This document shows, one piece after another, positions 5,545 through 31,531 of a stretch of DNA of 31,531 nt. Source of the DNA: a virus. Each line of letters opens with the position of its first letter. The stretch's first letter is position 1. The stretch spans positions 1-31,531 of IMG/VR virus record IMGVR_UViG_3300003702_000047, one strand, 5' to 3'. A program made the translations under genes and the position numbers. The notes under the pieces are model-generated. The model ran no database searches. It saw only the letters and a program-made list of their open reading frames with translations, and was not told the origin of the DNA.

Positions 5545-6885
5545 ATGCCTAATCCAAGTCTATCAGAATATCTAGCACAGTCGCAGCGTGGTCTGTATCA
5601 GTCTGTATTCGGGCCTGAATACTTAATGAAACAGTCCTATTTCACTGTTGACAGTTCTACTGGTATTTTCAATACAACTTATGGACGCAAGGTGTGGCAA
5701 GCTTTGAACAACCAGACTCGCTTCTTCAATGCTATCCCAAGGGTAGTTTGGGGTAATACGGCTGGTTGGCGTGTTCGTTCAGACCGTGGTTCTGGACGCT
5801 CTCGCCCCGTTACTGAAACGGGCAGTCTCCCAACCGTGGATGTTTCCAATATTGAGACTATATCGAGCTTGCCTCGTATAGTTTCCACGACCTTCGGTGC
5901 TTCCGTGAAGTCCGTCTTCACGGCTCAGTTGGAAGGTGGTATTGGGGATGTTCTCGCAATGGAGAATGAGAACTCTCAGCTTGACCATATCAAAGAAATC
6001 AATGAGGAGTTGCTGGCTGGTGGTGCGTATCTCGTATCTGCTGGTTCAACGACTGCCTTCACCGTACCCGCTGCTATTGCCAAGCACTTTAAAGTTGGCG
6101 ATGCAGTCGGCATGAACAATGTCGGTACTGGATTCGACAGGACTTCTGGTTCTGTTGTGTCTGCGGTCAACACCTCTACTGGTGTTGTGACTGTAGCCAC
6201 GGGCACCGCTTTTGCCGATGGTGACCTAGCTTACATTTACACTCGTGCTGGGTTCACCTCTCTTGATGACGTTGTAGCAGAAGATGCTATGGTTGTCGGG
6301 GGCGGTTCTGGTGGAGCCAACGTTAGGGCTTACGACCTAACTCAGGCTGGTCGGACTGCCGGTGCTTGGAATGCTGCTGCCAGTGTTCAGTTGAACAGTG
6401 GTACTGGTCGGGCTTTGTCTCTAACTCACCTGGACACCGCTATCCAAAAGATACGGGAAAATGGTGGGGAGCCGAAGCTCATCCTCTTGGGCCACGATCA
6501 ATACTTCAACCTAGAGCGTTTGTTGAATTCCAACCAGCGTTACATGGGTCAGGAAGAGTATCAGGTTGGTGTGGGTTCTGAGCGAACCTTCCCAGGTACT
6601 CGTACTGGTTTGGTCTTGGCTACTTATCAGGGCATCCCCATCCTACCGGATGCGGATGTGCCTAAGTCCGTTGCATCTAATGATGGAGTCTTGGGTTCCA
6701 ACATCTACGTGTTGGATACTGACTACATAGAAATTGCAGTTGCTCAACCTACTCAGTATGTTGAGAACCGTGACTACTTCGCTGCCAATGCGTTGGTGGT
6801 GAGGGGCTTGCTCTATACAATGGGCGAGATGCGGTGCAAGAATATGTGGGTTCAGGCCAAGATCGGGGACTTGAACGCCTCCTAA
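5545..6885 (+). CDS. major capsid protein, HK97 fold (predicted)
   Basis: The 446-aa protein has the expected N-arm (YLMKQSYFTVDSSTGIFNTTYGRKVWQALNNQTRFFNAIPRV), a central domain, and a C-terminal region with DTDYIEIAVAQPTQYVENRDYFAANALVVRGLLYTMGEM, typical of phage capsid ends. Residues ~165-235 form a Gly/Val/Thr-rich beta segment (VSAVNTSTGVVTVATGTAFADGDLAYIY), which looks like an inserted surface domain. AAGGAG lies before the ATG and a strong terminator follows. The gene is visibly richer in G+C and C-ending codons than its neighbours, as expected for a very highly expressed protein. The identification rests on context and overall pattern, not a search. Confidence 0.85.
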   Translation: MPNPSLSEYLAQSQRGLYQSVFGPEYLMKQSYFTVDSSTGIFNTTYGRKVWQALNNQTRFFNAIPRVVWGNTAGWRVRSDRGSGRSRPVTETGSLPTVDVSNIETISSLPRIVSTTFGASVKSVFTAQLEGGIGDVLAMENENSQLDHIKEINEELLAGGAYLVSAGSTTAFTVPAAIAKHFKVGDAVGMNNVGTGFDRTSGSVVSAVNTSTGVVTVATGTAFADGDLAYIYTRAGFTSLDDVVAEDAMVVGGGSGGANVRAYDLTQAGRTAGAWNAAASVQLNSGTGRALSLTHLDTAIQKIRENGGEPKLILLGHDQYFNLERLLNSNQRYMGQEEYQVGVGSERTFPGTRTGLVLATYQGIPILPDADVPKSVASNDGVLGSNIYVLDTDYIEIAVAQPTQYVENRDYFAANALVVRGLLYTMGEMRCKNMWVQAKIGDLNAS

Positions 6886-16584: not shown

Positions 16585-16677
16585 GTGGAGATATTCATTT
16601 GGTGGCCCTTTATACTCTGGAGTATGATTCTAACGACAGTCATTCTCGTAGTAGCGAAAAAGTGGGGGCGAAGGTGA
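16585..16677 (+). CDS. membrane micropeptide (30 aa)
   Basis: A GTG start follows the previous TAG directly. The peptide is one hydrophobic helix (FIWWPFILWSMILTTVILVV) with a basic end (AKKWGRR). The ribosome binding site is weak. Confidence 0.3.
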   Translation: MEIFIWWPFILWSMILTTVILVVAKKWGRR

Positions 16678-16744
16678 AGTCTACATCAGGGAACGAAGTC
16701 TCATTCAGTCGGATTGGGATGACCCTACTGACTGGGTAAACGGA

Positions 16745-16873
16745 ATGTCCTTAGCTTTAGCTTTTCAGTTGCGGGAACACTTACCAGATAATAATGCAGA
16801 AGCTAGGTTCCGCATACAAGTCGCTATGTTTTTAATCGAATTAATTGGGAGGATTGAATGGAATGAGAAGTGA
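16745..16873 (+). CDS. hypothetical protein, start codon unclear
   Basis: The frame is open from 16655 and reads like a real protein (WDDPTDWVNGMSLALAFQLREHLPDNN, then FRIQVAMFLIELIGRIEW), but the only ATG, GTG or TTG is ATG 16745, without a clear ribosome binding site. A non-ATG start near 16687-16705 or a frameshift from the preceding frame is possible. Confidence 0.4.
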   Translation: MSLALAFQLREHLPDNNAEARFRIQVAMFLIELIGRIEWNEK

Positions 16874-17186
16874 TGAAGGAATACAGTTACATCTATTTGA
16901 AATGGATCAATATGGGGATAATATAGATGGAGACCATATAATATTTGAACCTAAAACTAAAACCCATATAGAATTTACTTCCATACCCTTTCATGGGAAT
17001 ACCGATATTAAATATTGTATAACAGAAGTGGGGGGATATGGAGGAATGAAAAGTAGTAAATGGTTAGTGTTTAAGTTACAAGATAAGGCACCTTCAGAAC
17101 CAGAAATCTTTGGTTCAATACCTGAAACTGTAGCTTATATCGAAACTCTTACAGGGAAAAGTGTAAAGTTTAGAGGAGGGGGTTGA
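16863..17186 (+). CDS. hypothetical protein (107 aa)
   Basis: ATG 16863 is chosen with GGGAGG 10 nt upstream; the frame extends to TTG 16845. The protein is soluble with Gly-rich turns (EVGGYGGMKSSKWLVFKL) and ends RGGG. Its TGA stop is the TGA of the TTGACA -35 box of the noncoding-RNA promoter, so the gene end and promoter are fused. Confidence 0.55.
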   Translation: MRSDEGIQLHLFEMDQYGDNIDGDHIIFEPKTKTHIEFTSIPFHGNTDIKYCITEVGGYGGMKSSKWLVFKLQDKAPSEPEIFGSIPETVAYIETLTGKSVKFRGGG

Positions 17187-17211
17187 CAAGATTTTGCGAC
17201 TGTGATAAGAT
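17183..17211 (+). promoter_or_regulatory. promoter of the large noncoding RNA
   Basis: GGGTTGACAAG (-35 at 17183-17188), 17 bp, TAAGAT (17206-17211) preceded by TGA (extended -10). It belongs to the GGGTTGACAAGAATT family. Predicted start is about 17218. Confidence 0.75.
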
Positions 17212-17506
17212 GATGGAAGTCGAAACTGAAGGCGGTGCAGATATGTAGTGCCAACAGTGGTAGACTAAAAGGTGATGGACAAGATACAGTCGTGATGGCA
17301 TCGGTTTACCGGACAGTCATCAATACGTTATGTGATAGAATTCTTGCCATGTAGCTAATATCTGAAAGCTATAAAAACCCTAGGGAGAGAGTGGGTAGGT
17401 GTCCACAATCAATTCAAACTTCCCTCCTGCTGTAGCCTGAAACCGCTTGCTGTACCAGCAACCGCTAGTGTGGGTCTCTAGAATTCTAGATACTAGAGAA
17501 CACTTA

Positions 17507-17552
17507 GGTCGTGGTCTGATGTATCACAAGGTCGTGGTCTGTTGTATCACAG
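17507..17552 (+). repeat. two tandem 23-nt units, each a hairpin
   Basis: Two abutting 23-nt units (17507-17529 and 17530-17552) begin GGTCGTGGTCTG and differ at only two positions. Each folds as GTGGT, a 7-nt loop, ATCAC. They lie inside the large noncoding RNA and could be paired protein-binding or dimerisation elements. Confidence 0.8.
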
Positions 17553-17597
17553 TGTACAAGTCCCTGTTTGAAGTAACGTACTACCCATTTCTCGTTT

Positions 17598-17737
17598 AAG
17601 ATTTCTCTTGTTCTCTTGGTAAGGCTAGTGGCTTATAACCATTAGTTGGTACGGAAAGTAATGAATCGTAAGAGGCTGTGTACACACTAAGTCCCACTAA
17701 CCGTAACTTTACCAGGAGAACAGGGGGAATCTTTTTT
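17598..17737 (+). terminator. 27-bp closing helix and U tract at the noncoding RNA 3' end
   Basis: Positions 17598-17624 pair with 17707-17733 without interruption (27 pairs, five of them G-U). The helix encloses an ~82-nt branched domain and ends in TTTTTT (17732-17737). This is far longer than a normal terminator stem but should still release the transcript. Confidence 0.7.
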
Positions 17738-17760
17738 ATTGTAAGGAGAATAGTAACGTT

Positions 17761-17868
17761 ATGAAATATATGTGTTGGCGATGTAGGATGATTTCTAATG
17801 TTGTTAAAGGGTTTTCAATTAAGAACGCCTGTAATGATTGTAAGAACCATCCAGACAATAAAGGATAG
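17761..17868 (+). CDS. zinc-ribbon miniprotein (35 aa)
   Basis: A 35-aa frame with CWRC (residues 5-8) and CNDC (24-27) starts just after the noncoding RNA. AAGGAG is upstream but with long spacing (~13 nt), so the start is not certain. Confidence 0.45.
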   Translation: MKYMCWRCRMISNVVKGFSIKNACNDCKNHPDNKG

Positions 17869-28557: not shown

Positions 28558-28621
28558 GTAGGGTAGACTATACATACAGCATATAGTAGATAGTTACATT
28601 AGGCTAGTGTCAAAAAGAGGG

Positions 28622-28651
28622 TTGACAGAAATAATCTAGGGATGTTACATT
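28622..28651 (+). promoter_or_regulatory. early-family promoter
   Basis: GGGTTGACAGAAATA (-35 at 28622-28627), 18 bp, TACATT (28646-28651) with an upstream TG (extended -10). The -10 is followed by GTCTCCAAGCCAAA. Confidence 0.6.
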
Positions 28652-28681
28652 GTCTCCAAGCCAAACCAGGGGAGAGGAACA

Positions 28682-29038
28682 ATGAGTCATCGTTATATAG
28701 TGTCTAGTACACCTTATCTTAAACTGACAGGGAGGCCAATATACAAAGTACCACCTAGAGGGAATCTACCCAATCCGTACCATTGGAAACCAGGCCCATT
28801 AGAGAACCTAATACAGATAGGAGAAGCACAAAACGATATGGTAAACATTATTATAGCCCCGCCCCAAGACGATGTGGTGGATGTGGTGGTAGCTACAGAA
28901 GATGTAGAGTCTACACAGGAACGGGAAGTAACCATAACTATAACGCCTATACAAGATGTAGACTCCATCAAACCTGTAAAGACTCGTAAGGTTAGGGTAG
29001 GTAATAGAGTAAAGATTGTACCTATCACTACACTGTAG
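28682..29038 (+). CDS. hypothetical protein (118 aa)
   Basis: GGGGAGAGG precedes the ATG. The N-terminal half is Pro-rich and basic (KVPPRGNLPNPYHWKPGP). The C-terminal half is Val/Ile/Thr-rich and beta-like (DDVVDVVVATEDVESTQEREVTITITPI) with a basic end. Function is unknown. Confidence 0.55.
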   Translation: MSHRYIVSSTPYLKLTGRPIYKVPPRGNLPNPYHWKPGPLENLIQIGEAQNDMVNIIIAPPQDDVVDVVVATEDVESTQEREVTITITPIQDVDSIKPVKTRKVRVGNRVKIVPITTL

Positions 29039-29046
29039 AGGGCGGG

Positions 29047-29106
29047 TTTACAAGAATCCCGCCAGACCCCATAATAGTGGCACGGTCAACGAACCGAATC
29101 GGCACA
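29047..29106 (+). promoter_or_regulatory. early-family promoter with conserved leader
   Basis: GGGTTTACAAGAATCCC (-35 at 29047-29052), 17 bp, CATAAT (29070-29075). A leader, ACGGTCAACGAACCGAATCGG in outline, is almost identical to that before the third paralogue at 30964. It contains the dyad CGGT/ACCG. The -35 lies in an imperfect hairpin (GGCGGGTT and AAtCCCGCC). Confidence 0.7.
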
Positions 29107-29118
29107 GAGGTAAAGACT

Positions 29119-29352
29119 ATGGCAAACCCTAAGAGCGCAGGACAACTACCCGAAAGCATGGTACCAGGCTTCTACACATTGGACGGTAAAGACGTAGCAA
29201 TCATTATCGTACCTGTAGACCATGCTACCAGTAAGGTTGCAACGGATAAGGGCAATGTTACTGTAGGGCACTACAGAGAGGACTTGAGCGGTAGTGACGG
29301 TAAGGTGTACACGTTCAGCGGTATGTGCTACCGACACGATAGGAAAGGCTAG
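29119..29352 (+). CDS. small repeated-cassette protein, copy 1 (77 aa)
   Basis: ATG 29119 follows GAGG. The protein shares the core DGKDVAxxIxPVDHxT-K-TDKGNVTVGHYRED, then GSDGKVYTxSGMxYRHDRK with the proteins at 30107 and 31037. This is a paralogue family without a recognised function. Its compact, well-conserved beta-like sequence with charged loops might bind nucleic acid or a host protein. It is flanked by its own promoter and by repeated DNA. Tandem amplification suggests an important or dose-dependent product. Confidence 0.75.
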   Translation: MANPKSAGQLPESMVPGFYTLDGKDVAIIIVPVDHATSKVATDKGNVTVGHYREDLSGSDGKVYTFSGMCYRHDRKG

Positions 29353-29354
29353 GG

Positions 29355-29399
29355 TTGACAGGCTAGGGTAGGTATGGTACAATAGACATACCTACCCTA
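29355..29399 (+). promoter_or_regulatory. promoter inside a 13-bp inverted repeat
   Basis: GGGTTGACAGG (-35 at 29355-29360), 17 bp, TACAAT (29378-29383). TAGGGTAGGTATG (29364-29376) and CATACCTACCCTA (29387-29399) are perfect arms around the -10. No gene follows for 240 bp, so its RNA would run into the C-rich element. It is an operator or a transcript used at the repeat locus. Confidence 0.6.
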
Positions 29400-29437
29400 C
29401 CCTAGGGGATAGACGGTACAGTGAAAAATTTTAAATG

Positions 29438-29470
29438 GGATATATCCCCCTCCCCCTTATGTCCCCCTTA
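29438..29470 (+). repeat. 33-bp C-rich element, copy A
   Basis: It begins GGATATATCCCCCTCCCCC and is repeated at 30398 and 31340. It contains the palindrome GGATATATCC, then a C-rich, nearly G-free stretch ending CCCCCTTA. The gap 29353-29585 holds no supported gene. Confidence 0.9.
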
Positions 29471-29575
29471 CGGGAACGTATACCGGGAACGTATCCTATA
29501 TATGTACTTACCCTACATAGTATACTACCCGATATAGTATGCATACTCTCTATACGTATACTATATATAGTAGCT
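29471..29575 (+). repeat. GGGAACGTAT repeats and AT-rich palindromes (origin-like)
   Basis: GGGAACGTAT occurs at 29472-29481 and 29485-29494 (13-bp period). An AT-rich stretch with four perfect palindromes follows: TAGTATACTA (29518-29527), AGTATGCATACT (29536-29547), TATACGTATA (29551-29560) and CTATATATAG (29561-29570). Direct repeats next to AT-rich DNA resemble a replication origin. This is inference. Confidence 0.55.
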
Positions 29576-29585
29576 ACACAGGGGG

Positions 29586-29615
29586 TTTACAAAAATTCCC
29601 TTGGGATGCTAAACT
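29586..29615 (+). promoter_or_regulatory. early-family promoter
   Basis: GGGTTTACAAAAATT (-35 at 29586-29591), 18 bp, TAAACT (29610-29615) with upstream TG, then GTCCTCAGTCAATTCAGCAAGGAG. Confidence 0.65.
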
Positions 29616-29644
29616 GTCCTCAGTCAATTCAGCAAGGAGAGGAT

Positions 29645-30025
29645 ATGTACATTAACTACAATACCCAGGAAGTGGTCAGGACAATCACGGTAGATGTGGT
29701 GGATTCATTCAACCTAGACATTCAAATACCAGTCTGGGAAGTACGGCTTATCGTGGAGCGTAACTTTGTTGACGCTGGGGAATACGGTCTGGCGGGGTTC
29801 CAGAAGATATCCGCTATCAAGGAAGTACGGACTAGCCACTTGGGTATCCCCTACCTGAGTATCGGGTTACGGGAAGCAAAGGAAATGGTAGAGGCGGTAT
29901 ACAACGAGGGAGTAGAAGCCGGGAACTACCATGCTACTGTCCCTAAGACCCTTAAGCCATATGAGGCTGAGGGTGATAGCGATAACCATAACTACAATGC
30001 TACAGCAGATACCCTACCCTTTTAG
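29645..30025 (+). CDS. hypothetical protein (126 aa)
   Basis: ATG 29645 follows AAGGAGAGG. The longer frame from 29435 runs through repeats and the promoter and is not credible. The protein is alpha/beta with VRTITVDVVDSFNLDIQIPVWEVRLIVERNF and a C-terminal segment GLREAKEMVEAVYNEGVEAGNYHATV, then an acidic Asn-rich tail. No family is recognised. Confidence 0.65.
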   Translation: MYINYNTQEVVRTITVDVVDSFNLDIQIPVWEVRLIVERNFVDAGEYGLAGFQKISAIKEVRTSHLGIPYLSIGLREAKEMVEAVYNEGVEAGNYHATVPKTLKPYEAEGDSDNHNYNATADTLPF

Positions 30026-30042
30026 GGTAGAGGCCGGGGGGG

Positions 30043-30071
30043 TTTACAAGAATCCCCCTTGGCCCCATACT
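30043..30071 (+). promoter_or_regulatory. early-family promoter
   Basis: GGGTTTACAAGAATCCCCC (-35 at 30043-30048), 17 bp, CATACT (30066-30071), then GGAGTCAGTCCAAAG. The -35 lies between GGCC...GGGGGTT and AAtCCCCC...GGCC arms, an imperfect hairpin. Confidence 0.7.
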
Positions 30072-30106
30072 GGAGTCAGTCCAAAGAAGCACAGCAGGAG
30101 TACAGC

Positions 30107-30352
30107 ATGGCTAAACAAGCCACGGCCCCTAAGAGCAACGGTCAGCTACCCGATGGTATGGAGAGTGGGTTCTTCACCCTAGATGGTAAGGATGTGGCGG
30201 TAGTCATTATCCCCGTTGACCACGCTACCACCAAGGAGCCTACCGATAAGGGTAACGTTACCGTGGGTCATTACCGGGAGGACATGGTAGGGTCTGACGG
30301 TAAGGTTTACACCCTAAGCGGTATGACTTACCGGCACGACAGGAAGAAGTAG
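30107..30352 (+). CDS. small repeated-cassette protein, copy 2 (81 aa)
   Basis: ATG 30107 follows CAGGAG. It has the same core as copies 1 and 3 (MESGFFTLDGKDVAVVIIPVDHATTKEPTDKGNVTVGHYRED, then YRHDRKK). Copies 2 and 3 share MESGFF and VVIIPVDH, while copy 1 differs slightly, so they are not recent identical duplications. Function is unknown. Confidence 0.75.
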   Translation: MAKQATAPKSNGQLPDGMESGFFTLDGKDVAVVIIPVDHATTKEPTDKGNVTVGHYREDMVGSDGKVYTLSGMTYRHDRKK

Positions 30353-30361
30353 CCGGTACCG

Positions 30362-30387
30362 GGGAGTAGAACGCAAGTTCTACTTCC
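30362..30387 (+). other. GNRA-type hairpin
   Basis: GTAGAAC (30366-30372), GCAA loop, GTTCTAC (30377-30383), extended by GGA/TCC with one bulge. A GCAA tetraloop is very stable. There is no T run, so it may mark the 3' end of the copy-2 mRNA or be a partial terminator. Confidence 0.6.
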
Positions 30388-30397
30388 TGGCAAATAG

Positions 30398-30430
30398 GGA
30401 TATATCCCCCTCCCCCCTACGTTCCCCCTA
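30398..30430 (+). repeat. 33-bp C-rich element, copy B
   Basis: It begins GGATATATCCCCCTCCCCCC and ends TTCCCCCTA. It aligns over the full 33 bp with copies at 29438 and 31340. It follows the second cassette protein. Confidence 0.9.
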
Positions 30431-30454
30431 CAGTGTATCTCTAGGAATGCCGGG

Positions 30455-30483
30455 TTTACAAGATTCCCAGGAACTGCGATAAT
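30455..30483 (+). promoter_or_regulatory. early-family promoter
   Basis: GGGTTTACAAGATTCCC (-35 at 30455-30460), 17 bp, GATAAT (30478-30483) with TG upstream, then GGTGGTCAG. Confidence 0.7.
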
Positions 30484-30525
30484 GGGGGTGGTCAGAAAGA
30501 AAGTCTACATGAAGGGGAACTAGGA

Positions 30526-30696
30526 ATGTTAGGAATATCTTTAGATAAGCATATCGTGGGAACTACCATACGGTTTAGACCAGGCTGGAACAAGTTCATA
30601 ACCAACGGGAAGGGGCTGGGAATGTCGGTAACCCTACAGTCACCCATAGAGTTTCACATAACCCTACCCTATGGTAAGCGTAGATATAAAGGGTAG
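30526..30696 (+). CDS. small basic protein (56 aa)
   Basis: AAGGGGAAC precedes the ATG. The protein is beta-like and basic (TTIRFRPGWNKFITNGKG, then FHITLPYGKRRYKG). It fills the gap between two promoters. No family is recognised. Confidence 0.5.
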   Translation: MLGISLDKHIVGTTIRFRPGWNKFITNGKGLGMSVTLQSPIEFHITLPYGKRRYKG

Positions 30697-30708
30697 CTAT
30701 AGGCTGGG

Positions 30709-30737
30709 TTGACAAGAGTTAGGCTATAGGTTAGACT
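30709..30737 (+). promoter_or_regulatory. early-family promoter
   Basis: GGGTTGACAAGAGTT (-35 at 30709-30714), 17 bp, TAGACT (30732-30737), then GGTCACATCC. Confidence 0.65.
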
Positions 30738-30771
30738 GGTCACATCCTAATCAGCCAGCGGAGTGATTCAA

Positions 30772-30954
30772 ATGATTTGTGAGAATTGTGGTGACCCAGC
30801 GACCAATTTCCTGCCCCATCTATCTGAGGCTGTCCGGTTAATGACAGAGAGCGATGGTGACTTTCTCTGTAACGACTGCTATATTTGGATAGAGTCAATG
30901 GGTGCGCCTACCCCTAATAATGGCTTTAAGCCTGAGCCTAAGCCTGAACCTTAG
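30772..30954 (+). CDS. zinc-ribbon protein with Pro-rich tail (60 aa)
   Basis: ATG 30772 has GGAG 8 nt upstream (GTG 30763 is in frame). MICENCGDPATNF and LCNDCYIW form a zinc ribbon typical of small phage proteins. It ends in a Lys-Pro-Glu repeat (FKPEPKPEP). Confidence 0.6.
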   Translation: MICENCGDPATNFLPHLSEAVRLMTESDGDFLCNDCYIWIESMGAPTPNNGFKPEPKPEP

Positions 30955-30963
30955 GCTCAAGGG

Positions 30964-31024
30964 TTGACAAGACTTCCAGCAGACCCCATACTAGTAACAC
31001 GGTCAGCGAACCGAATCGGACAAC
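30964..31024 (+). promoter_or_regulatory. early-family promoter with conserved leader
   Basis: GGGTTGACAAGACTT (-35 at 30964-30969), 17 bp, CATACT (30987-30992). Its leader (ACGGTCAGCGAACCGAATCG in outline) nearly equals that at 29047. This conservation exceeds that of the spacers. Confidence 0.7.
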
Positions 31025-31036
31025 AGGTGAAACACT

Positions 31037-31285
31037 ATGGCAACTGCCCCAAAGGCTCCAAAGGCTTCCGGTAGTCTTCCCAAGGGTATGGAGAGCGGGT
31101 TCTTCCAGACGGCAGACGGTGACGATGTAGCAGTCGTTATCATCCCCGTAGACCACAACACTGACAAGGTGCCCACTGACAAGGGTAACGTCACTGTCGG
31201 GCACTACAGGGAAGACATAGCCGCCAGCGATTCCAAGGTCTACACTTTCTCCGGTATGTGCTACAGGCACGACAGGAAGAAATAG
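31037..31285 (+). CDS. small repeated-cassette protein, copy 3 (82 aa)
   Basis: ATG 31037 has AGGTGA upstream. It has the family core (MESGFFQTADGDDVAVVIIPVDHNTDKVPTDKGNVTVGHYRED, then FSGMCYRHDRKK). The N-terminus is Ala/Lys/Pro-rich. The gene is C-richer at third positions than copy 1. Confidence 0.75.
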   Translation: MATAPKAPKASGSLPKGMESGFFQTADGDDVAVVIIPVDHNTDKVPTDKGNVTVGHYREDIAASDSKVYTFSGMCYRHDRKK

Positions 31286-31291
31286 ACCAGC

Positions 31292-31330
31292 TAGGGTAGG
31301 GGTTGACAAAACCCCTACCCTATTTTTTTT
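31292..31330 (+). terminator. terminator built around a promoter -35 motif
   Basis: TAGGGTAGGGGTT (31292-31304) and AACCCCTACCCTA (31310-31322) form a perfect 13-bp stem with loop GACAA, followed by eight T. The stem top and loop read GGGTTGACAA, the early-promoter -35 motif. Confidence 0.9.
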
Positions 31331-31339
31331 CCCCATATA

Positions 31340-31372
31340 GGATATATCCCCCTCCCCCCTGCGACCCCCTTA
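31340..31372 (+). repeat. 33-bp C-rich element, copy C
   Basis: It begins GGATATATCCCCCTCCCCCC and ends ACCCCCTTA. It follows the terminator of the third cassette. Confidence 0.9.
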
Positions 31373-31383
31373 TAGGCACCTCC

Positions 31384-31431
31384 TGGGAATTCCACTGGGA
31401 ACATGCCTGGGAACATTTCTGGGAACTATGG
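31384..31431 (+). repeat. four 12-bp iteron-like repeats
   Basis: TGGGAA recurs at 31384, 31396, 31408 and 31420, exactly every 12 bp; the two middle units read TGGGAACATGCC and TGGGAACATTTC. No supported gene lies in 31286-31531. Confidence 0.8.
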
Positions 31432-31522
31432 TACCCCCTACCTACCCACGACCCCTACACTCGCTCTGAGAGACTCGTACCAGGGCGGTGCCTATGACCG
31501 CTACCCCTATAAGGTATAAGGG

Positions 31523-31528
31523 TTTACA
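31523..31528 (+). promoter_or_regulatory. early-family -35 element at the window edge
   Basis: GGGTTTACAAGA is cut by the window end, so the -10 is not visible. An imperfect dyad (ACCCCTATA / TATAAGGGT) lies just upstream. The cassette pattern probably continues. Confidence 0.5.
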
Positions 31529-31531
31529 AGA

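Follow-up and report, generated by a model that had tools for sequence, protein, structure and literature searches.

A noncoding region in a tailed-phage genome

The stretch of DNA analyzed here (the window) is an entire 32-kb IMG/VR virus record (31,531 nt). Its genes are those of a tailed phage, and include a head maturation protease, a major head protein, an exonuclease, a Mom-like DNA modification protein, and DUF932. Between a gene that ends at position 17186 and a gene for a 35-amino-acid zinc-ribbon-like protein (17761-17868) lies a region whose only open reading frame of at least 50 amino acids is a 50-amino-acid frame that begins with TTG (17447-17599). The initial annotation regarded this region as free of genes, and comparison with homologous loci upholds that view. 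No conserved protein frame is present within 17187-17760. Each of the five large homologues described below carries 4-13 stop codons in all three frames, and the indels that separate them are not multiples of three. An ORF with a GTG start that overlies the Shine-Dalgarno (SD) sequence of the region was considered and rejected: it runs through 39 open codons in the window, a stop and a non-triplet indel interrupt it in phage locus L002, and it loses its register in L003 and L011.

A promoter consisting of TTGACA, a 17-nt spacer, and TAAGAT is located at 17183-17211 (this and all RNA features below are on the plus strand). It is a member of the TTGACAAG promoter family found genome-wide, other members of which lead to ordinary genes with an SD and an ATG. 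The presence of a family promoter at one end of the region had been noted from the start, and its conservation is now evident: TTGACA with a 17-nt spacer occurs at the equivalent place in L002, L003, L004, and L011, and thus in all five large forms. We infer that transcription starts near 17218, and a U6 tract that follows a 27-bp helix is the probable transcript end in the window. Judged from the sequence, the best explanation is that the region encodes a free-standing phage RNA of ~520 nt that is made from its own sigma70-type promoter and belongs to a family not previously described; this explanation, taken together with the mechanism proposed below, has about even odds.

Several other features of the window were recorded. 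The best named relatives of the major head protein (5545-6885) are from haloarchaeal tailed viruses and a Methanofastidiosa virus (25-30% identity), although the promoters and SDs of the window look bacterial. Positions 16659-16874 are conserved at the DNA level in L002, L003, and L004 (73-87%) and hold an open frame containing RSLIQSDWDDPTDWVNGMSLALAFQLREHL, without a standard start codon near its beginning; this is probably a small gene absent from the ORF listing. Three diverged tandem copies of a ~1-kb gene module span 28600-31531, with 219-nt repeats at 29127, 30127, and 31060, of which the second matches the first at 71% identity and the third at 61%. Near-identical promoter-leader blocks precede several of the module copies (29044-29114 versus 30961-31031, 80%).

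Large and small members of the RNA family

The RNA is present in eight distinct IMG/VR phages. The Mom gene was used as bait to collect relatives, and blastn of the RNA region against these revealed identities to the window RNA of 89% (L002), 73% (L004), and 69% (L003). An HMM built from these sequences added L010/L011 and L084, and a scan with the core pattern recovered all known members and added L089 and L091. A covariance model of the core, termed R1, scores 63-85 bits in all eight phages, and the best non-member in the search reached 22. The match in the window spans 17268-17377 (75.6 bits, E 1.5e-13). All members have head genes or other genes in common with the window, which indicates that they represent one broad phage lineage.

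Searches of other collections were negative. The region has no blastn match among INPHARED phages or PLSDB plasmids, the L011 RNA has only a 25-nt chance match to named phages and plasmids, and the L089 RNA has none. No relatives were obtained with the upstream gene as bait. Seven pattern matches in genome contigs were rejected as chance occurrences (R1 E at least 0.07), and thus no cellular or prophage copy was found; likewise, a scan with helix P2 alone yielded only chance matches beyond the known members.

Rfam scans of the window and its homologues, at gathering thresholds and at E <= 5, returned only tRNAs and chance matches, the best in the window being mir-2432 (E 1.7, far below gathering). 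No Rfam 15 family matched, including OLE RNA, group I and II introns, and riboswitches. The covariance model for GOLLD (RF02032) has no match at E <= 5 in the window, L004, L011, or L091, and that for ROOL (RF03087) also has none. The converse search of two true ROOL loci with R1 was negative. A GOLLD search of 250 genomes of one class found no match but also had no positive control, and is therefore uninformative. The initial annotation had named ROOL, GOLLD, OLE, and introns as the families to compare and had suggested a likeness to ROOL or GOLLD. Membership in either is not supported, and the resemblance, which is reasonable in kind (size, phage location, a tRNA neighbor in one relative, and a palindromic loop), remains an analogy.

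Five members of the family are large (~380-520 nt; the window, L002, L003, L004, and L010/L011) and three are small (~100-150 nt; L084, L089, and L091). The L089 and L091 RNAs comprise the core followed by a U7 tract, with TATAAT just upstream, and L084 carries the core plus a short version of helix P4. In L005, a close relative, the promoter at the same place leads straight to an ordinary gene and the RNA is absent. The RNA is thus an optional module.

The genes downstream differ among the members. The zinc-ribbon-like protein follows in the window and L002, a different small protein in L003, a tRNA in L004, and a family of 127-160-amino-acid proteins in L011 and L084. The downstream proteins of L003, L011, and L084 have no Pfam hit. 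Those of the latter two (L011 8459-8941; L084 8077-8460, minus strand) are 46% identical between two diverged phages. When this gene was used as bait it led to L088, which has the gene and lacks the RNA. The stretch that separates the core RNA from the next gene in L089 (~904-1224) and L091 (~390-790) contains the palindrome TTGTGA-N6-TCACAA, with N6 entirely A/T, in five or more copies. Some copies flank a TTGACA promoter, and the array looks like phage-repressor operators.

A covarying core

The core comprises 84 positions and includes two helices. Helix P2 joins GG(A)CAAG (17277-17283) to CUUGCC (17343-17348), and has a bulged A followed by an internal loop (RUAC / RGAAUN) and a variable hairpin. 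Hairpin P3 (17351-17372) has the form GUAGCU-AAUAUCUGAA-AGCUAU, with at least 6 bp and the consensus loop AANNYCURAA. In the eight viruses all cells of P2 and of P3 are paired, and both sides have changed in three of six pairs of P2 and two of six pairs of P3. For example, P2 is GG(A)UACG/CGUACC in L011 and AG(A)CAAG/CUUGCU in L089 and L091. In a joint test of P2 and P3, 94.6% of cells were paired compared to 27-51% in slid versions, and five pairs had both-side changes. The covariation score exceeded that of all 500 shuffles and all slid versions.

Covariation was chosen to test the structure because the folding energy of the conserved part is unremarkable. The initial annotation had emphasized heavy folding, and this holds for the whole stretch (17218-17745, z = -2.6), mostly due to the 27-bp element. 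It does not hold for the conserved part (17218-17595), which at -106.0 is no better folded than its shuffles (-100.5 +/- 5.7). Folding energy was therefore dropped as evidence. An 11-bp helix proposed earlier between 17238-17249 and 17354-17364 must also be abandoned: it amounts to only 7 bp (17238-17244/17358-17364), is broken in L002, and clashes with the covarying P3.

The homologues thus share a covarying secondary structure, by which a new RNA family is recognized, and the G-U pairs in P3 and P4 argue for an RNA rather than a DNA element. From these comparisons, the structured RNA family is very probably real. The core claim of the initial annotation, a large structured noncoding RNA of a phage (17187-17760), and the placing of this RNA outside Rfam are supported by the homologues, the covariation, and the conserved promoter. 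The initial annotation had missed several features, namely the P2/P3 core, the long-range helix P4, and an SD-AUG-stop arrangement at the 5' end.

The 3' domain and an optional 3' element

P4 is formed by 17389-17398 and 17581-17590 and closes the 3' domain. Across six viruses it measures 10-16 bp, and its strands fall into three versions unrelated in sequence: GAGUGGGUAG/CUACCCAUUU in the window, which L003 lengthens to 16 bp; GGGGGGGUGGAC/GUCCACCCCCCU in L011; and AGUCAGGCAGGG/CCCUGCCUGAUU in L084, where the enclosed domain is very short. The latter two are 12 bp each. Shuffled sequences matched P4 in 0-1 of 1000 trials for L003, L004, L011, and L084; the window alone gave a modest 34 of 1000.

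Within the domain, the 12-bp hairpin recognized earlier at 17467-17504 is confirmed as 5 plus 7 bp with a GGG bulge. Its 11-nt loop, AAUUCUAGAUA, contains the palindrome UCUAGA (17485-17490). Loop and inner stem are invariant in four viruses, one purine excepted, and the outer stem covaries (GUGU/ACAC versus CUGG/CCAG). The palindromic loop, which is a possible kissing-loop site for dimer formation, is absent from L011.

Two tandem 23-nt repeats, GGUCGUGGUCUGWUGUAUCACA (17507-17552), carry the motif UUGUAUC. There are four copies of this motif in the L003 RNA, four in L011, one or two in the window, L002, and L004, and none in the small members. In L003 and, independently, in L011, no 7-mer is more frequent than TTGTATC. 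In the 12.8-kb loci of these two phages, 4/5 and 4/4 of the plus-strand copies, respectively, lie inside the RNA, and the complement GAUACAA was not found on the plus strand (minus-strand TTGTATC 0). Intramolecular pairing of a 5' GAUACA with UUGUAUC was considered and rejected due to its loss in L011. A type III toxin-antitoxin RNA (ToxI) was also rejected, given the lack of a Pfam hit downstream in L003, L011, and L084 and two imperfect repeats only in the window.

The RNA of the window and L002 ends with an additional element (17598-17737). As the initial annotation stated, it is built on 27 uninterrupted pairs (17598-17624/17707-17733, five of them G-U), which are followed by a U6 tract; the longest helix in dinucleotide shuffles averaged 12 bp and never exceeded 18. 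The helix is real, yet its importance had been overestimated because it is an optional 3' end that L003, L004, and L011 do not have. In L003 the next gene comes directly after the P4 domain. In L004, a tRNA-Leu(UAA) gene takes the place of the element, no more than 7 nt from the 3' strand of P4. tRNA genes are located elsewhere in L010/L011 and are absent from the window, L002, and L003. A tRNA identity for the 3' element was rejected because neither ARAGORN nor RF00005 finds a cloverleaf in the window. The structured apical part (17625-17706) holds an anticodon-arm-like hairpin, CUAGUGG-CUUAUAA-CCAUUAG, and the corresponding loop of the L004 tRNA-Leu(UAA) is CUUAAAA. This hairpin is possibly a tRNA remnant.

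A Shine-Dalgarno sequence and start-stop at the 5' end

The 5' domain, P1 (17218-17266), is a hairpin closed by AGUC...GACU, or by GGUC...GACC in L004. It surrounds an extended SD, AAGGCGGUG (17229-17237), and an AUG followed immediately by UAG (17243-17248). This SD-AUG-stop arrangement is retained in 5/5 large forms, in which the SD reads AAGGCGGUG, AAGGUGGUG, or UGGAGGUG, with AAGGNGGUG or UGGAGGUG conserved throughout, 4-5 nt before an AUG that lies ~30-37 nt from P2. The stop codon is UAG in the window, L002, and L004, UAA in L003, and UGA in L010/L011. Stop-codon reassignment was rejected because three different stops are used. Among 1303 distinct AUG-stop sites in the phage loci (both strands, 2.08 Mb), eight have an SD score of at least 7, and five of these eight are the family RNAs. 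No AUG-stop was found in the two true ROOL loci.

The predicted fold of P1 in L003 and in L011 differs from that in the window, L002, and L004. Such variation between groups means that a shared hairpin does not explain the AUG-stop. Since the window, L002, and L004 are closely related, the number of independent lineages behind the start-stop is about three. These sequence comparisons suggest that the start-stop is probably under selection. However, predicted pairing covers much of the SD (mean unpaired 0.22-0.43 in the window, L002, L004, and L011), which would weaken ribosome binding. The arrangement is also absent from the small forms L084, L089, and L091, and is therefore not needed for the function of the core.

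No bacterial or phage start-stop ORF of this type was found in the open-access literature, to which the search was confined (subscription papers not covered). There the term "start-stop" is used for eukaryotic upstream ORFs (uORFs) or for overlapping gene ends.

Possible functions

Ribosome parking or docking is a plausible role for the start-stop, which we put forward tentatively and at somewhat less than even odds. It is favored because ribosome binding at the 5' end stabilizes bacterial RNA and because GOLLD binds ribosomes in pull-downs. A ribosome-binding site near the 5' end is known to stabilize untranslated bacterial RNA (reviewed in PMC3997798), with the RBS of a mini-ORF, STAB-SD, and the aprE leader cited as cases (refs. 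98, 106, 109 therein). Ribosomes have been reported bound to GOLLD in pull-down experiments (PMC12286853).

In the proposed mechanism, the SD would recruit an initiating ribosome to the 5' end of the RNA. With no sense codon after the AUG, the ribosome would stay there without entering the structured RNA and would then leave by termination. The likeliest purpose would be protection of the untranslated RNA against ribonucleases at its 5' end, attachment of the RNA to ribosomes, or both. The core and 3' domain would act as folded RNA, possibly as a dimer formed via the palindromic loop. We assign a probability of roughly 0.27 to the full reading, in which a zero-codon ORF captures initiating ribosomes and a folded, possibly self-assembling RNA rides or blocks the host ribosome. 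If this reading is true, and only at that same likelihood, such a ribosome-docking noncoding RNA would represent a class not known in bacteria or phages.

The main rivals to ribosome parking or docking are a self-assembling scaffold similar to GOLLD or ROOL and a minigene effect similar to that of lambda bar. An RNA-only scaffold is unlikely. In this view the RNA would fold by itself and assemble into a homo-oligomer, either a dimer or a cage, by way of palindromic kissing loops; a phage tRNA would be its neighbor or cargo, and the start-stop would be secondary. In favor of a scaffold, the RNA is encoded by phages, is 380-520 nt long in its large forms, has the closely adjoining tRNA-Leu(UAA) in L004, and displays the invariant UCUAGA loop. 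Symmetric kissing loops are employed by GOLLD, ROOL, and OLE alike, and tRNAs are sometimes found in GOLLD linkers (PMC12286853). On the other hand, it is not rare for an 11-nt loop to contain a 6-nt palindrome by chance, L011 has no such loop, and the small members are only ~100-150 nt. The lack of an Rfam match and the absence of the core model from the ROOL loci also count against a scaffold.

The second main rival, which we consider less likely still, is a translation-interference minigene: an abundant SD-AUG-stop RNA would tie up initiating ribosomes or initiator tRNA and slow host translation during infection, and the folded remainder would only confer stability and abundance. Phage bar minigenes are a real precedent, depleting tRNA through peptidyl-tRNA drop-off (PMC8012679), and the conservation of a strong SD and an immediate stop in three stop-codon versions is what such a minigene calls for. 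However, AUG-stop yields no peptidyl-tRNA beyond fMet-tRNA, so the route of bar toxicity is not directly applicable, and the SD is partly paired. Nor would a minigene explain the conserved core, which L084, L089, and L091 possess with no start-stop.

Two further proposals are improbable to a similar degree. A cis-acting leader, either riboswitch or attenuator, would suit the location of the RNA between a promoter and an SD-bearing gene (17761-17868), and L011 and L084 do have a downstream gene in common. Against a leader, the downstream genes differ among window/L002, L003, L004, and L011/L084, the terminator-like 27-bp helix and U tract precede the gene in the window and L002, and L005 keeps the promoter position without the RNA. 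Alternatively, the UUGUAUC loops could form a binding-site array that works as CsrB does on CsrA, titrating a small RNA or an RNA-binding protein of host or phage. The independent, strand-specific enrichment of this 7-mer in L003 and L011 would be expected of a sponge, but the motif is present in only 1-2 copies in the window, L002, and L004 and is missing from the small members, and the lack of plus-strand GAUACAA leaves the sponge without a visible phage mRNA partner in the L003 and L011 loci. That the region is instead a decayed gene or a DNA element (an iteron cluster or a replication origin) is very improbable: TTGTATC repeats could be iterons and the promoter, SD, and ATG resemble a normal gene start, but compensatory changes with G-U pairs in P2, P3, and P4, a constant promoter spacing, and a start-stop kept in three stop forms argue otherwise.

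Comparison with known systems

Large phage RNAs are a known kind, and the present family and its start-stop head are absent from the databases and literature searched. GOLLD is likewise a large structured RNA of phages and prophages that is often near tRNAs or contains them, and that has a conserved part and a less conserved part (PMC12286853). It differs in being about twice as large, in sharing no homologous helices with the family, and in the existence here of small members. ROOL is similar in its phage and prophage distribution, its length, its proximity to tRNA islands, and its conserved symmetric kissing loop, but the two true ROOL loci lack both the core motif and an AUG-stop.

Lambda bar minigenes are also phage-encoded and also combine an AUG with near-immediate termination. 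However, bar has one sense codon (AUG-AUA-stop) and acts by peptidyl-tRNA drop-off (PMC8012679), whereas the family RNA has zero sense codons and its site heads a structured RNA. STAB-SD, the aprE leader, and the mini-ORF RBS of EHEC are comparable in that a ribosome bound near the 5' end protects the RNA although no useful translation follows (PMC3997798). Those stabilizers reside on mRNA leaders, while here the site is on a noncoding RNA with a conserved AUG-stop. Eukaryotic start-stop uORFs, such as that of Arabidopsis NIP5;1, similarly act on the ribosome and not via a peptide (PMC5972666), but are part of mRNA leaders without an SD.

GOLLD and ROOL have no known function, and this unrelated family gives a testable handle, with a start-stop that points to the ribosome in agreement with the reported GOLLD pull-downs (PMC12286853). 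Naturally occurring small and large versions show which parts are core and which are add-ons. Should the start-stop work as proposed, a ribosome could, by simple means, serve a noncoding RNA as cap or anchor without translating it.
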